64,000 nucleotides of DNA from an uncultured Bacteroidales bacterium (GTDB lineage: Bacteria > Bacteroidota > Bacteroidia > Bacteroidales > Muribaculaceae). The translations under genes and the position numbers were made by a program. Below the pieces are notes generated by a model. The model did no database searches. It saw only the letters and a program-made list of their open reading frames with translations, and was not told the origin of the DNA. This document shows, one piece after another, positions 56,767-63,058 of the stretch (positions are counted from its first letter, which is position 1; each line of letters begins with the position of its first letter). The stretch spans positions 40,858 to 104,857 of the forward strand of contig CAMGBT010000001.1 of the NCBI GenBank assembly GCA_946011725.1. The letters run 5' to 3'.

Positions 56767-59700
56767 ATGGCTAATACCAAATTTTTCAGCTCTTTAAGCC
56801 GTAGATTACTTCCGCTTACTTTGATGTTGGGTGCATTCATCACATCATCAGCTCAAGATTACGAAGTAAACACTATGGCCAACCGCCGCGGCGAATTTGT
56901 GCCCGGCGAGGTTATTGTGAAGTTTAAGGACACAAGTTCGGTGCGCATGCGTGCGCCTCGCGCCGTAGATTTCCGCTCCACCACCGTGGATGCCGTCGAC
57001 CAAACCTTCCGCGCCTTGGGCGTGCAGCAGGTCGAAGAACTGATGCCGCTCACCGGCGGCGCTCCAATGCGTCAAAATGTGCGTTCATTCTCCGGCAGCA
57101 CCGTGCCATCCGCCCCGATGGCCTTGGCCTACCGCGTCACCCTCAGTCCCGAGACCAACGTATTCGACGCCATCAACCAATTGCAAGCCCTCGAACAAGT
57201 GGAGTATGCCGAGCCTAACTATATGGTTTACACCTTGGAAGACGGCTCCCCCGACGACCCCTATTATACCAACCAATATGGCATCCAAGACATCAACTTA
57301 TACGATCTCTGGGGTATGCCCGTCATCTCAAAGGAAGGTCCAGTGATTGCCATCCTCGACACCGGTGTCGACGTCACTCACCCCGACCTCATCGACAATA
57401 TCTGGACCAACACCTCCGAAAACGATGGCGCCATCAAGTTTGATGACGACGGCAACGGCTTCGTCGACGACGTGCACGGTTGGGACTTCGTCAACCAAAC
57501 CGGCGACATCTTCGACTACAACGGCCACGGCACACACTGCGCCGGTATCGCCGCCGCCACCGGCTACAACGGCAAAGGCATCATCGGCGCCAACCCCTAC
57601 GCTCGCATCATGCCCGTTACCGTGATGCAAAGCAACGGCACCGGCGACATCGCCACCATCATCAAAGGCATCGACTACGCTGCCGCCAACGGTGCCGCCA
57701 TCATCAGCATGAGCCTTGGCACTTACTCCACCTCAATCGCCTTTGAGCAAGCCCTCGGTCGCGCTTACCAAAAGTGCGTATTAGTGGCCGCTGCAGGCAA
57801 CGATGGCTTGTGCCTCAATCATAAGCATCCGGAAAAGGGTCAAATGGCCCCGGCGCCTCAGTTCCCGGCTGCTTATACCTTCGTGCTCGGTGTGCAAGCC
57901 TCGAAACCCGAAGGCGGATTGGCCGGCTTCAGCAACTATGACGACGATGGTCCCGTATTCTCCTCATACACAGAACAATACAACTACGAACTGACCGTAC
58001 CGGGCGCGAACATCGTCAGCACCTTCCCCAACGGCCAATACAAGTATCTCAATGGTACTTCAATGGCCACTCCTTTGGCAGCCGGCGCCATCTCGCGCTT
58101 GCTCCAAGCCAAAGAATATCCCAATAAAGAAATCCTTTTTGGCGACTTAATCAACTGCCTCACCTCCAAAGGCAACACCGACTTCTACGCCGCCTACCAA
58201 ATCACCGATGAGCAACGCACTCCCGAGTTGCAAGTCACCACATTCGCCATCGAAGACCCCGAAGGCGACAATGATGGCCGTCCCGATGCCGGCGAACTCG
58301 TCAATATCTATCCTACAATCCGCAACGCTTGGGGTACCGCCAAAAATATCCGCATCAAACTCGAGTGTGCCGAGCCTGTCAATAATGTGTACACCCCTGT
58401 AGTTGAAGAAGTGGACTTCGGCTGGGAACTTTCAGCCTACGGTAGCGCTCGCTCAGCCAACCCGCTGCAAATCCGCCTCAAAGATGACGTAGTCGACGGC
58501 CGCATCATCATGCTCAAATTGATTGTCACCGGCGACAATGCCGCCACAGTGGAACTGCCCATCCAAATCACCGCCGAAAATGGCGTAGAACTTTCCGGTG
58601 TCATCGCCGAGGATATGACCCTCTATCCCAATGTTCACTACATCGTAACCACCAACCTCGCCGTGCCCGAAGGCGTCACCCTCACCATCCTCCCCGGCAC
58701 TGTCCTCAAATTCCGCGATGATACCGGCCTCAACGTGCAAGGCAACATCATCGCTAACGGCGAACCCGGCAACATGATTACATTCATGCCTGCCGACGGA
58801 GCTTTGGGCCAAATGAATGGTTTTATTCTTGGCCATTATGCTTATCCAACAAACAAACTGGGCTTCATTTCATACGCGACATTTACAAATCTAAGAAGTG
58901 ACTGGATGATTCGGTATGCTAACCTGAGTAATTGTATATTAAAGGATAGCAACACATTTAATTGTCTAGACAATTCTAATGTTGATAAATGTGCAATATA
59001 TCAAAATGATATAATTCGAATGCTTGATTCATATTTGTTCAATACGAATTATTGCGAGAATCGACATAATAATGGATATCACACCTGCTTCGATACATTT
59101 GAAAATACGAATTCATTTAATAACGATTGGAAAAATTATGGTCTGTTCTCAGTGGATTACTATACGGAATCAGTTAGTGTTTTCACTCCGGAGAAGCCCA
59201 ACTACCTTGGCTCGGCTCGCGAGGACATCGTGAAGCCGTTGGTATTGGATATTCGCACCGGCTTCGGCTTTGGCCAATACGACCTCTTGAATATGCGGAC
59301 GAGGCCGGTGGCTCAGGCTCACGGCATCGTGTGGAAGGTGGTGGTTAATGGCTATGATGCTCAGGATGAGTACGAAAGCCTGCCGCCGTTAGGCGTGGGT
59401 CGCCACGAGTTCAAGGTCTACTTCAACCGTCCGATGAATCACGACAAAGCGCCGGTGATTGCCATGGGTCTGCGTGAACCGTATACCCAAACCGCCATCG
59501 CCGAGGACGGAGCGTGGAGCTCGGAAGTGTTCGATGGCGAAACCGTCGACATCTACACCGCCTACCTCACTCTCCGCGGCAAGGATAACATCGACGGCGT
59601 CAACACCATCTACGTGGCTCAAGCCGAAGATGACGAGTTCTTCGAAATCCCTGTTGAGAAGCGCCGCTTCCATGTCAACGTGCAGAGCGCCGGTTCGCTC

Positions 59701-60807
59701 AGCGCCGGCTTCATGGCCGAAGCGGGCGTGGGCAAGGTGTCGCTCTCGTGGGACAACACCGAAGAGAACTTCGACGACATGCTCGGCTACAACCTCTACC
59801 GCTACACCCTCGCCGAAGACGGTTCGCAATCCGAACCCGCCTGCATCAACCGCAGCCTCATCACTCCCGACGAAACCGAATTCGTCGACTACGACATCAC
59901 CCCCGGCAACACCTACTGCTATTACTACAAGGTGCTGAGCACCTCGCTCACCGAGAACTCGCCCTCGAAGGTGGTGGCCGCCACTCCGCGCGCCGCTTCC
60001 AAAGGCGATGCCAACGGCTCCGGCGATGTTGACGTCAACGACGTGGTGTCCATTGTCAATTACATGGTGGGTGTGGACCAACGGCCTTTCATCCTTGATG
60101 CCGCCGACGTCAACTCCGACACCGCCATCGACATCCTCGACGTGGTAAGCACCGTCAACATCATCCTCACTCCCGAACAGGCCGCCAAACCGGCTGCTAC
60201 GGCGGAGAATGGCGTGGCCATCTACTATGTGGAAGACGGCGTGCTCTACGTCGACTCGCCCGTGGCTCTCTCCGGCGTTGACATCACCTTCGCCGCCACT
60301 CCGCGCGTGTCGTCCTTCACCCCGATGGCCGACATCGCCGCAATGGAAGTTACCGGCGGCTATGTGACCGACGGCCTCTACCGTGTGGTAGTCTTCTCCG
60401 CCGCCGGCAAGGCAATCCCCGCCGGTCGCACCGCTCTGCTGCGCATCGCCGATGCTGACATCGAAGCCATCACATTGGCCGACACTCGCGCCAATCGCGT
60501 GGACGCTCAAGCTGCCGACGAAAGCGGTGTTAGCGAAGCCGTGGCTGATGAAGTCCTCCGCCCCTGGCCGAATCCGTTCAAAGATTTCATCAACGTGCCT
60601 GTAACCGTGGCCGCCGACCAAGACGGCAAAGTGACCGTAACTCTGGTCAACCTCGCCGGCCAAATCGTGGCTATGCAGTCGCTCACACTGCAACCCGGTG
60701 ACCACACCGTGACCCTCGCCACCGACGCGCTGCCGCAAGGTTTCTACCTGCTCAACGCCTCAGTGGACAACTATACCGTACTCACCGAAAAAGTAATCAA
60801 ACGTTGA
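56767..60807 (+). CDS. Secreted subtilisin-like (S8) peptidase with beta-helix-like, FN3-like, dockerin-like, cohesin-like and T9SS type A-like C-terminal domains
   Basis: Catalytic motifs VIAILDTGVDVTHPDL, GHGTHCAGIAAATGYNGKGIIG, NGTSMATPLAAGAISRL; dockerin-like GDANGSGDVDVNDVVSIVNYMVG...AADVNSDTAIDILDVVSTVNIIL; C-term RPWPNPFKDFINVPV...VTLVNLAGQIVAMQSLTLQPGDHTVTLATDALPQGFYLLNASVDNYTVLTEKVIKR. Confidence 0.9.
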   Translation: MANTKFFSSLSRRLLPLTLMLGAFITSSAQDYEVNTMANRRGEFVPGEVIVKFKDTSSVRMRAPRAVDFRSTTVDAVDQTFRALGVQQVEELMPLTGGAPMRQNVRSFSGSTVPSAPMALAYRVTLSPETNVFDAINQLQALEQVEYAEPNYMVYTLEDGSPDDPYYTNQYGIQDINLYDLWGMPVISKEGPVIAILDTGVDVTHPDLIDNIWTNTSENDGAIKFDDDGNGFVDDVHGWDFVNQTGDIFDYNGHGTHCAGIAAATGYNGKGIIGANPYARIMPVTVMQSNGTGDIATIIKGIDYAAANGAAIISMSLGTYSTSIAFEQALGRAYQKCVLVAAAGNDGLCLNHKHPEKGQMAPAPQFPAAYTFVLGVQASKPEGGLAGFSNYDDDGPVFSSYTEQYNYELTVPGANIVSTFPNGQYKYLNGTSMATPLAAGAISRLLQAKEYPNKEILFGDLINCLTSKGNTDFYAAYQITDEQRTPELQVTTFAIEDPEGDNDGRPDAGELVNIYPTIRNAWGTAKNIRIKLECAEPVNNVYTPVVEEVDFGWELSAYGSARSANPLQIRLKDDVVDGRIIMLKLIVTGDNAATVELPIQITAENGVELSGVIAEDMTLYPNVHYIVTTNLAVPEGVTLTILPGTVLKFRDDTGLNVQGNIIANGEPGNMITFMPADGALGQMNGFILGHYAYPTNKLGFISYATFTNLRSDWMIRYANLSNCILKDSNTFNCLDNSNVDKCAIYQNDIIRMLDSYLFNTNYCENRHNNGYHTCFDTFENTNSFNNDWKNYGLFSVDYYTESVSVFTPEKPNYLGSAREDIVKPLVLDIRTGFGFGQYDLLNMRTRPVAQAHGIVWKVVVNGYDAQDEYESLPPLGVGRHEFKVYFNRPMNHDKAPVIAMGLREPYTQTAIAEDGAWSSEVFDGETVDIYTAYLTLRGKDNIDGVNTIYVAQAEDDEFFEIPVEKRRFHVNVQSAGSLSAGFMAEAGVGKVSLSWDNTEENFDDMLGYNLYRYTLAEDGSQSEPACINRSLITPDETEFVDYDITPGNTYCYYYKVLSTSLTENSPSKVVAATPRAASKGDANGSGDVDVNDVVSIVNYMVGVDQRPFILDAADVNSDTAIDILDVVSTVNIILTPEQAAKPAATAENGVAIYYVEDGVLYVDSPVALSGVDITFAATPRVSSFTPMADIAAMEVTGGYVTDGLYRVVVFSAAGKAIPAGRTALLRIADADIEAITLADTRANRVDAQAADESGVSEAVADEVLRPWPNPFKDFINVPVTVAADQDGKVTVTLVNLAGQIVAMQSLTLQPGDHTVTLATDALPQGFYLLNASVDNYTVLTEKVIKR

Positions 60808-60814
60808 TTCGCCT

Positions 60815-63058
60815 ATGCTTTTCAGATTATTAATGCTCATTGTGGCGTATGGAGCCGCCTCGGCTCTATACGCCGGCAATGTGGTGAGTGTGACGGGCGG
60901 CAGCGGTGCCGTCGGTTCGCAAGTGACACTGAGTGTGGGCTTGCAGACCGACGGTAGCGATGCCGTGGCCGCCGAAATTCACATCCCGCTGCCGGACGAA
61001 GTGACCCCGGTGGGTGAGTGCGTGGTCAATACCTCGCGCCTGCCGTCGCACTTGGTGAAAGCCGAGGCGCGCTCCGGCGAGTATGTGATTGTGATTTTCG
61101 ACTTAGCCGCCACGCCGTTCACCCCCGGCTCGGGCGAGGCTGTGCGCTTCTCCCTAAACCTCGGCGAGAACCCGGGCGTGTTTGACCTCACGCCCACGGT
61201 GAAACTCAGCAACGCCGCCGGCCAAGCCGTGGAAGCCACCGCCACCGGCGAATCGCTCACCGTTCTCGGTGCCCGCTTGGAAGTGGATGCCGTGACGCTC
61301 GACTTCGGCCGCGTCCCCATCCGCGGCACATACACCCGACAAGTGACCGTGCGCAACACCGGCACCACCGCGCTCCAATTCTCCCCGATTGCCACCGCCA
61401 TGTCCGGCCTCAGCGCCGTGCCGGCCTTGGCCGAACTCCCGGCCGGCGAATCCACGAAGCTGGTGCTAACTTACTCGCCCACAGTGCGTTCAACAGGCGA
61501 AACCGACCGCCTCATTCTCGAATCCAACTCTGTGGGCCGCGCCCCGCGGTTGATTGTCACCGCCGAACCGTTCTCCGTCAACGAGCTTCACGTGGGCAGC
61601 GCCGAGGGCGTTAGCGACACGGAAGTGACTATCTCCTTGAGAATGAACAATATGGAACCGATTGTGGCTGCGCAAGCATCGTTCGTGCTGCCGCAAGGCC
61701 TGGAATATGTCGACGGCAGTGTAGCTGCCGCCGACCGAGCCTCGGCGCTGTCGGCCTTGGCCTCGGTCGACGAAACCCGCCGCCTCACGCTGTTCCTCTA
61801 CAGCCTCGGCAACACCGCCGTCGATGGCGAAGATGGCGAACTGCTCACCTTCCGCCTTCTGCTCACCGGCCAAAGTAACACTCACACCCTCCGCCCGGAG
61901 AATGTGGTATTAGCCAACGCTGCCGGCGAGAACATGGTGTCGGCCGCCGAAAATGGGCGCGTCACCATTCGTGCTCCGTACATCTCCGGCTCGAGCTCGC
62001 TCTCGCTTGGTAATAAGCCTATTACCGGCACGCATACCTTCGCCTACACTGTTCGCAACTACGGCTCGGCACCGCTGCAAATCGAACGCGTGGTGTCGCC
62101 CGATGGCGTGGCCGTGTGCGACGCGCTCCTGCCCGCTACCGTGGCCCAAGGCGGCACATTCACCCTGCCCATCACCATCGCCGACCCGCAGTTGGGCGCC
62201 TTCACCTCCACCGTCAACATCTACTCCAACGCGCCCAACGCGCGCGTGAAGTCATTCACCGTATCCGGCTCGTTCTACAGCCCGAATGAGATAGTTTTCA
62301 CCGGTGAATTTGTCGATGGCGACTTTGTGATGGGCGCTTACCTGCTGAACGAAGCACCGATTACCGCCGTGCAGATGGATGTGGTGGTGCCCGAAGGCGT
62401 GACCACCGCCGCCGCCAACCTCCGGATGGCCGACCGAGCCGGCTCGCACACCGGCACCGTGGCCGCTGTGGGGGAGAACCGCTACCGCGTGATTGTGTTC
62501 TCGCTGTCGAACGTTGCCTTCAGCGGCAACAGTGGCGAAATCTTCACCATCCGCTTCACTCCGGGCGAGGCCGACCCGCGCACCATCAGCGTGGAGAACA
62601 TCAAACTCAGCGGCAACGACGGCGTGGACTACACTACCCCCGACAGCCAAAGTAAGCAAGTGCGCGGCATCCAACTGGAAGACCCCATTGTGGTCAACCT
62701 CGGAAGCCAAACCACCATCACCCCATCCACCTTCGGTTTCTCCGGCGAAACTCTTGACTATCAGTGGTCTGTAGAAGATACCGCCATCGCCACCGTGGCC
62801 GATGGCACCGTTGAAGGCCTCGCCTTTGGCCAAACCACCCTCCGAGTGCAAGCCACCGATCCCCAAGGCGTGACCTATATTGCCACCTGCCCCTTGACCG
62901 TCAAAGAAGACTCCGGCATCGCCGACCCCGCCGCTGACTCCGCACCGGTTGAATACTACAACCTGCAGGGCGTGCGCATCGACCGTCCCGAAGCCCCCGG
63001 CATCTACCTCCGCCGCCAAGGCTCCGCCACCACCAAAGTGCGCCTCCCCGCTGAATAA
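60815..63058 (+). CDS. Secreted modular protein: three cohesin-like modules alternating with two ASH-like modules, a BIG2-like domain and a short C-terminal motif
   Basis: Repeats such as VGSAEGVSDTEVTISLRMNNMEPIVAAQASFVLPQGLEYVDGS...LTLFLYSLGNTAVDGEDGELLTFRLLL; ASH-like LDFGRVPIRGTYTRQVTVRNTGTTALQFS; C-term EYYNLQGVRIDRPEAPGIYLRRQGSATTKVRL. Confidence 0.75.
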   Translation: MLFRLLMLIVAYGAASALYAGNVVSVTGGSGAVGSQVTLSVGLQTDGSDAVAAEIHIPLPDEVTPVGECVVNTSRLPSHLVKAEARSGEYVIVIFDLAATPFTPGSGEAVRFSLNLGENPGVFDLTPTVKLSNAAGQAVEATATGESLTVLGARLEVDAVTLDFGRVPIRGTYTRQVTVRNTGTTALQFSPIATAMSGLSAVPALAELPAGESTKLVLTYSPTVRSTGETDRLILESNSVGRAPRLIVTAEPFSVNELHVGSAEGVSDTEVTISLRMNNMEPIVAAQASFVLPQGLEYVDGSVAAADRASALSALASVDETRRLTLFLYSLGNTAVDGEDGELLTFRLLLTGQSNTHTLRPENVVLANAAGENMVSAAENGRVTIRAPYISGSSSLSLGNKPITGTHTFAYTVRNYGSAPLQIERVVSPDGVAVCDALLPATVAQGGTFTLPITIADPQLGAFTSTVNIYSNAPNARVKSFTVSGSFYSPNEIVFTGEFVDGDFVMGAYLLNEAPITAVQMDVVVPEGVTTAAANLRMADRAGSHTGTVAAVGENRYRVIVFSLSNVAFSGNSGEIFTIRFTPGEADPRTISVENIKLSGNDGVDYTTPDSQSKQVRGIQLEDPIVVNLGSQTTITPSTFGFSGETLDYQWSVEDTAIATVADGTVEGLAFGQTTLRVQATDPQGVTYIATCPLTVKEDSGIADPAADSAPVEYYNLQGVRIDRPEAPGIYLRRQGSATTKVRLPAE

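Follow-up and report, generated by a model that had tools for sequence, protein, structure and literature searches.

Plug-and-socket complexes built from cohesins and dockerins are familiar chiefly from clostridia that degrade cellulose. Here we describe a pair of adjacent genes in a 64,000-nucleotide (nt) window (the whole stretch of DNA analysed, from contig CAMGBT010000001.1 of an uncultured Bacteroidales bacterium) that encode a dockerin-bearing subtilase, protein A, and a cohesin-bearing protein, protein B, and we consider whether the two products form an extracellular complex. Both genes are on the + strand, in head-to-tail order, with 7 bp between them; both reading frames, both lengths and this spacing are as given in the first-pass annotation, an earlier reading of the same DNA. 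The features of the locus, in window positions, are as follows.

56767..60807, + strand: protein A, 1346 amino acids (aa); signal peptide, fervidolysin-type propeptide, S8 subtilase, accessory beta domains, dockerin, X module and type IX secretion system (T9SS) type A sorting domain
57334..58116, + strand: S8 catalytic domain of A, aa 190-450 (PF00082, E 2.4e-48; subtilisins of the PDB, E to 4e-34)
60004..60177, + strand: dockerin of A with two Ca-binding repeats, aa 1080-1137 (Dockerin_1 in homologues; ligands kept)
60205..60516, + strand: module X of A, degenerate and cohesin-like, aa 1147-1250 (hhalign to the module profile)
60565..60804, + strand: T9SS type A C-terminal sorting domain of A, aa 1267-1346 (PF18962, 7.9e-9, 36-41 bits; TIGR04183, 2.2e-8)
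60815..63058, + strand: protein B, 747 aa; signal peptide, three cohesins (Coh1 to Coh3) alternating with two ASH domains (Coh1-ASH1-Coh2-ASH2-Coh3), Big_2 domain and short tail
60878..61273, + strand: cohesin module 1 of B (A1 profile, 3.6e-33, as a training-set member; Coh1-Coh2 hhalign E 4.6e-34)
61271..61564, + strand: ASH/HYDIN immunoglobulin (Ig)-like domain 1 of B (PF22544, 2.5e-15; choice_anch_D, 9.7e-16)
61568..61990, + strand: cohesin module 2 of B (PF00963, E 3.3e-4; AlphaFold2 model; Foldseek)
61985..62260, + strand: ASH/HYDIN Ig-like domain 2 of B (DUF1573/ASH matches)
62258..62650, + strand: cohesin module 3 of B (A1 profile, 2.8e-30, as a training-set member; Coh3-Coh2 hhalign E 3.5e-21)
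62666..62884, + strand: Big_2-like Ig domain of B (PF02368, E 0.0058, under the cut-off)
62936..63046, + strand: short C-terminal tail of B, YYNLQGV..GIYL..TTKV, possibly a minimal sorting tail (recurs at the C termini of family proteins)

Protein A has the D-H-S triad and the oxyanion Asn of an S8 subtilase, carried by the motifs ILDTGVD (196), GHGTHCAG (253), AAAGNDG (341) and NGTSMATP (429). The duplicated Ca-binding motif that the first-pass annotation had pointed out in this protease is a dockerin: the ligands of both repeats are intact (D1081/N1083/S1085/D1089/D1092 and D1114/N1116/D1118/D1122/D1125) and mostly near-invariant among 33 family sequences, and helices 14-25 and 47-58 follow the Ca loops in a low-confidence AlphaFold2 model, the two-loop arrangement of type I dockerins. 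Against Pfam Dockerin_1 (cut-off 22.9 bits) the module scores 16.4-18 bits alone and 25.1 bits with its in-frame neighbours, and all 28 A homologues match the same family (best E 1.1e-8). Among the measured segments of A it is the best conserved, with a mean pairwise identity of 76%, compared with 67% for the S8 domain, across 15 full-length A proteins. Such strong conservation is what would be expected of an interface under selection, without proving binding.

The three modules that had been called cohesin-like in B lie where the first-pass annotation placed them, and both their profiles and the predicted jelly-roll fold identify them as cohesins. A profile built from 68 family modules, three per B protein, retrieved mostly cohesins from the PDB (the first being 5nrm, at E 1.7e-4), and Pfam Cohesin was found in 48 of the 68 modules taken individually (best E 2.8e-9), with no other family recurring. 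Module 2, the best-conserved stretch of B (55%), was modelled by AlphaFold2 with a predicted local distance difference test score (pLDDT) of 97 and a predicted TM score (pTM) of 0.89. All of the 50 best Foldseek matches of this model in the PDB were cohesins, many from cohesin–dockerin complexes, led by 2xdh, a non-cellulosomal cohesin of Archaeoglobus fulgidus (E 2e-10, TM 0.77). The cohesin fold was modelled for Coh2 only; Coh1 and Coh3 are assigned by profile homology to Coh2. An unrelated Ig/ASH fold, which the earlier reading had named as the outcome that would count against it, was not seen in the Coh2 model, and a plain Ig/ASH identity of the modules is ruled out by the PDB profile matches, the Pfam Cohesin matches and Foldseek, the ASH domains sitting between the cohesins. 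When strand 3 of the cohesins was aligned by hand to the clostridial contact positions Asn37/Asp39 (PMC5772552), the register was ambiguous by two residues, and the alignment was left unused.

Standard domain models miss this arrangement. On the window's B, Pfam Cohesin reaches module 2 alone, at 21.3 bits against a cut-off of 24.1, and a Pfam Cohesin scan across the window genome gave no match, a failure of sensitivity that the A1 profile remedied. Because the modules of B fall under the Pfam cut-off, standard annotation reports a dockerin without a cohesin, and the likely dockerin partners in this genome stay hidden just below a threshold.

To place the pair among its relatives, we drew B homologues from 297 genomes of the same family and from a GTDB-wide scan, two sets that overlap (for example, L012/L040). 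At every full-length B locus having upstream sequence (about 35 loci, some overlapping), an A gene with a dockerin lies directly upstream on the same strand, with a spacing of -4 to about 650 bp and stop and start codons that often overlap. When the middle part of A was searched through the same 297 genomes, strong matches occurred in exactly the 16 genomes with a full-length B, plus one (G062) in which the contig ends inside A's dockerin. Chance adjacency or an assembly artefact is ruled out by the about 35 further loci, in other assemblies. That A and B belong together as a unit is supported by genomic evidence stronger than the first-pass annotation could have known. What stays constant across the B family is the set of three cohesins with two ASH domains; beyond Coh3, homologues vary and end in a short tail, a dockerin of their own, Big_2 arrays or other repeats. 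Ten B homologues have their own dockerin (L014, L015, L017, L022, L024, L025, L041, L046, L054 and L055). Three others (L047, L050 and L053) are lengthened, to 1508 aa in L050, by cysteine-bearing repeat arrays of the form ACDSYTW..G.TYT.SG.Y...L.T..GCDS. The conservation of the pair, the dockerins on some B homologues and the degenerate cohesin-like module in A are all points absent from the earlier reading.

The dockerin of A is the only one detected in the window genome (82.8 bits; the next candidate, in a 94-aa open reading frame, scores 13.1 bits at E 0.29), and the cohesins found there by the A1 profile are B's three, plus X. Three genomes of three other genera (G046, G137 and G194) give the same match counts, three cohesins and one dockerin. 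Across the 297 genomes, 98 hold both module types, 4 cohesins only, 10 dockerins only and 185 neither (Fisher test, p 4e-61, a value that ignores relatedness); the association persists after removal of the A-B genomes (p 1e-53) and inside the window's genus (13/0/1/24 in the same order, p 3e-9). The control domain Big_2, which is likewise secreted and Ig-like, is near-ubiquitous (265/297 genomes), and the general presence of secreted beta domains therefore cannot account for this pattern. The rarity in gut Bacteroidales implied by the first-pass annotation does not hold, since about a third of these same-family genomes contain both module types. A cellulosome proper is ruled out for the window genome, where the only detected dockerin protein is a protease and where domain-library matches in B include neither a carbohydrate-binding module (CBM) nor an S-layer homology (SLH) domain. 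One genome, G001 of genus g2, has twenty dockerin matches and no match to the cohesin profile.

Export by the T9SS, also suggested earlier for both products, is probable for A and lacks a matched sorting domain in B. SprA was found in the window genome, as in all 20 genomes tested, and the sorting domain of A matches PF18962 and TIGR04183, which together qualify A as type A cargo. B matches neither model and has only its short tail; tails of this kind end many proteins across the family. A short tail of about 40 aa replaces the full PF18962 domain in A homologues at L015, L017-L025 and L044. The type of tail is ruled out as a sign of T9SS absence, because SprA is present in 20/20 genomes whichever tail A has. 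The short tail is possibly a minimal T9SS tail that domain libraries miss.

Taken together, the domain assignments, the conserved linkage, the co-occurrence of the modules, their exclusivity within the genome, the conservation of the dockerin and Coh2, SprA and the recurring dockerin–cohesin gene pairs described below favour docking between A and B. We propose, with a probability of roughly 0.65, that A and B are dedicated partners in an extracellular cohesin–dockerin complex and that docking of A on B is the function of these modules. We judge the pair to be a non-cellulosomal, probably T9SS-exported protease and scaffold, with binding, surface location, stoichiometry and substrate all inferred. 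In such a complex, both proteins would cross the inner membrane by means of the signal peptides read from their sequences and would probably cross the outer membrane through the T9SS, A by its sorting domain and B by a tail that is suggestive at most. The Ca-loaded dockerin of A would then plug into at least one of the three cohesins in B, so that B may act as a cohesin–ASH rod that displays between one and three subtilase molecules on the cell surface. B homologues with a dockerin of their own could link rods onward by docking on further cohesins, module X of A among them. The role may be concentrated, cell-bound proteolysis, either for peptide and nitrogen supply or for the processing of surface proteins.

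Several observations weigh against docking of A on B. The variability of B past Coh3 means that anchoring is not uniform. Dockerins and cohesins often occur on one polypeptide, which inflates their co-occurrence, and the Fisher values also leave phylogeny out of account. The dockerin itself was predicted at low confidence (pLDDT about 50-60) in an AlphaFold2 model of a fragment of A. Its recognition positions are V-N/A in repeat 1 and I-L in repeat 2, and not the Ser/Thr pair per repeat described for Clostridium thermocellum (PMC5772552); the partner-facing surface is therefore unlike the clostridial one, which points to another specificity. The Ser/Thr pair is not universal among dockerins, and the module is best termed a dockerin, not a clostridial type I dockerin. 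The altered recognition positions and the unequal repeats suggest that it likely has a single binding mode with a specificity of its own.

The best-placed alternative, though an unlikely one, is that A's dockerin docks mainly on its own module X or on the X of another A, that B's cohesins serve some other ligand or dockerin, and that A and B are merely co-regulated. Module X always follows the dockerin in A and is homologous to cohesins (hhalign against the module profile, probability 96.9, E 1.9e-10); 2w1n, a cohesin and fibronectin type III structure from Clostridium perfringens, is the top Foldseek match of a model of dockerin, X and tail, with other cohesins lower in a mixed list, and single-chain tandems of dockerin and cohesin are common in relatives. 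However, X is degenerate and shortened to about 100 residues, matching the A1 profile at E 0.39 only, and AlphaFold2 does not place the dockerin confidently against X (pTM 0.50), which leaves stable intramolecular docking unsupported. Such an arrangement would, moreover, leave the three conserved cohesins of B partnerless in a genome with no other detectable dockerin.

Still more doubtful is the idea that the modules no longer bind at all, the dockerin being a Ca-stabilized spacer and the cohesin folds structural or adhesive, such that B would be an adhesin or a rod unrelated to A's dockerin. Animal TMEM132 offers a precedent for a cohesin and Ig architecture with no known dockerin partner (PMC6030884), and the low pLDDT of the dockerin fits a spacer. 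However, no measured part of the protease is better conserved than that same dockerin, and neither the strict pairing of A with B nor the genome-level co-occurrence of the modules would be expected if neither protein needed the other. Least probable is that B, instead of being a scaffold, serves the subtilase as a maturation partner, an inhibitor or a substrate and is presented to it by docking. The one-to-one gene pairing and tight coupling, typical of enzyme–cofactor pairs, would allow this, but the three cohesins per B suggest multivalency, and A retains a propeptide of its own, which is the usual aid to folding.

The nearest known case to the proposed docking of A on B is an S8 protease of C. 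thermocellum whose double dockerin, dDoc_0689, binds the cell-bound scaffoldin ScaD and prefers a cell-bound cohesin (review PMC12484212). Both cases combine an S8 protease and a dockerin with proposed tethering to a cell-surface cohesin. Whereas the clostridial protein has two dockerins and belongs to a Gram-positive cellulosome producer with the cohesin on a cellulosomal scaffoldin, A has one dockerin, and its candidate partner is an ASH–cohesin rod encoded by the adjacent gene, in a Gram-negative envelope of the T9SS type with no cellulosome. Cohesins outside cellulose degradation, from C. perfringens glycosidases (2jh2, 2ozn, 2w1n and 2vo8) and A. fulgidus (2xdh), are among the closest solved folds to the B modules and X, but their carriers are enzymes or an archaeal protein, whereas B has three, alternating with ASH domains and with no recognized catalytic domain. 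Anaerobic methanotrophic (ANME) archaea, not known as cellulose degraders, encode proteins resembling scaffoldins, in which several cohesins are combined with a dockerin (PMC9012536); some are S-layer linked and their partners are not assigned, whereas for A a partner can be proposed from a conserved operon.

Within the phylum, dockerins of undefined role have been reported in rumen Bacteroidetes (PMC7480376), and some sequences that contain cohesins have been attributed to Bacteroidetes (PMC4035507, PMC6071333). One genome study detected neither module, a result that it termed consistent with other Bacteroidetes genomes (PMC5831590); as of 2014, no cellulosome producer was reported from the Bacteroidaceae (PMC4035507). 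The rumen proteins resemble A in carrying dockerins on secreted proteins (PMC7480376, PMC6071333, PMC4035507), but those surveys relied on library domain models and yielded mostly dockerins, whereas a family-specific profile gives candidate cohesin partners here. B also holds two domains of the choice-of-anchor-D or HYDIN-ASH type (NF012200, PF22544), interleaved with its cohesins, an architecture for which we found no description in the literature searched; nor did we find a description of the A-B pair among open-access papers. With one detectable dockerin and three cohesins in a single operon, the locus is a small, clean test case for plug-and-socket enzyme complexes in Gram-negative gut bacteria, and the pair could supply a new cohesin–dockerin specificity for protein engineering.

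Two further types of tandem gene pair with dockerins and cohesins recur. In one (L026, L028, L029, L032, L033 and L035), a gene for a Big_2-dockerin-cohesin-tail protein precedes a gene for a cohesin-cohesin-Big_2 protein (cohesin-cohesin-dockerin in L035); no protease was seen in these six pairs. The other, in g17 genomes (L095, L097, L105, L106, L109 with two loci, and L110), has a cohesin-dockerin-cohesin protein, often with leucine-rich repeats (LRRs), followed by a cohesin-dockerin protein of about 220 aa; in one L109 copy the first protein shows only cohesin-dockerin. Confirmed dockerins number about 20 or more in most g17 genomes (G187, G193, G222, G286 and others; L095-L111), alongside many cohesins; scoring was limited to about 21 candidates per genome, and the first-look candidates, up to 234, are an upper bound. 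Their dockerin carriers include C10 and M6 peptidases, alpha-amylase, endonuclease I, a peptidyl-arginine deiminase (PAD)-like enzyme and BspA-type LRR proteins.

At a little under even odds, we suggest that Bacteroidales own a cohesin–dockerin assembly system, set in a T9SS envelope and serving mainly non-cellulases (S8, C10 and M6 peptidases, nucleases, PAD-like enzymes and LRR adhesins), of which the window operon would be the smallest form and g17 the largest, with a minimum of about 20 dockerins per genome and perhaps more than 200. In three g17 genomes, a second, partial SprA-like segment, covering about positions 758-1199 of the model, contains one in-frame TGA. The three segments, identified by SprA model match, lie at the following positions.

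G193:C4:27504-28871: partial SprA-like segment with TGA
G222:C35:28226-29599: partial SprA-like segment with TGA
G286:C41:64917-66281: partial SprA-like segment with TGA

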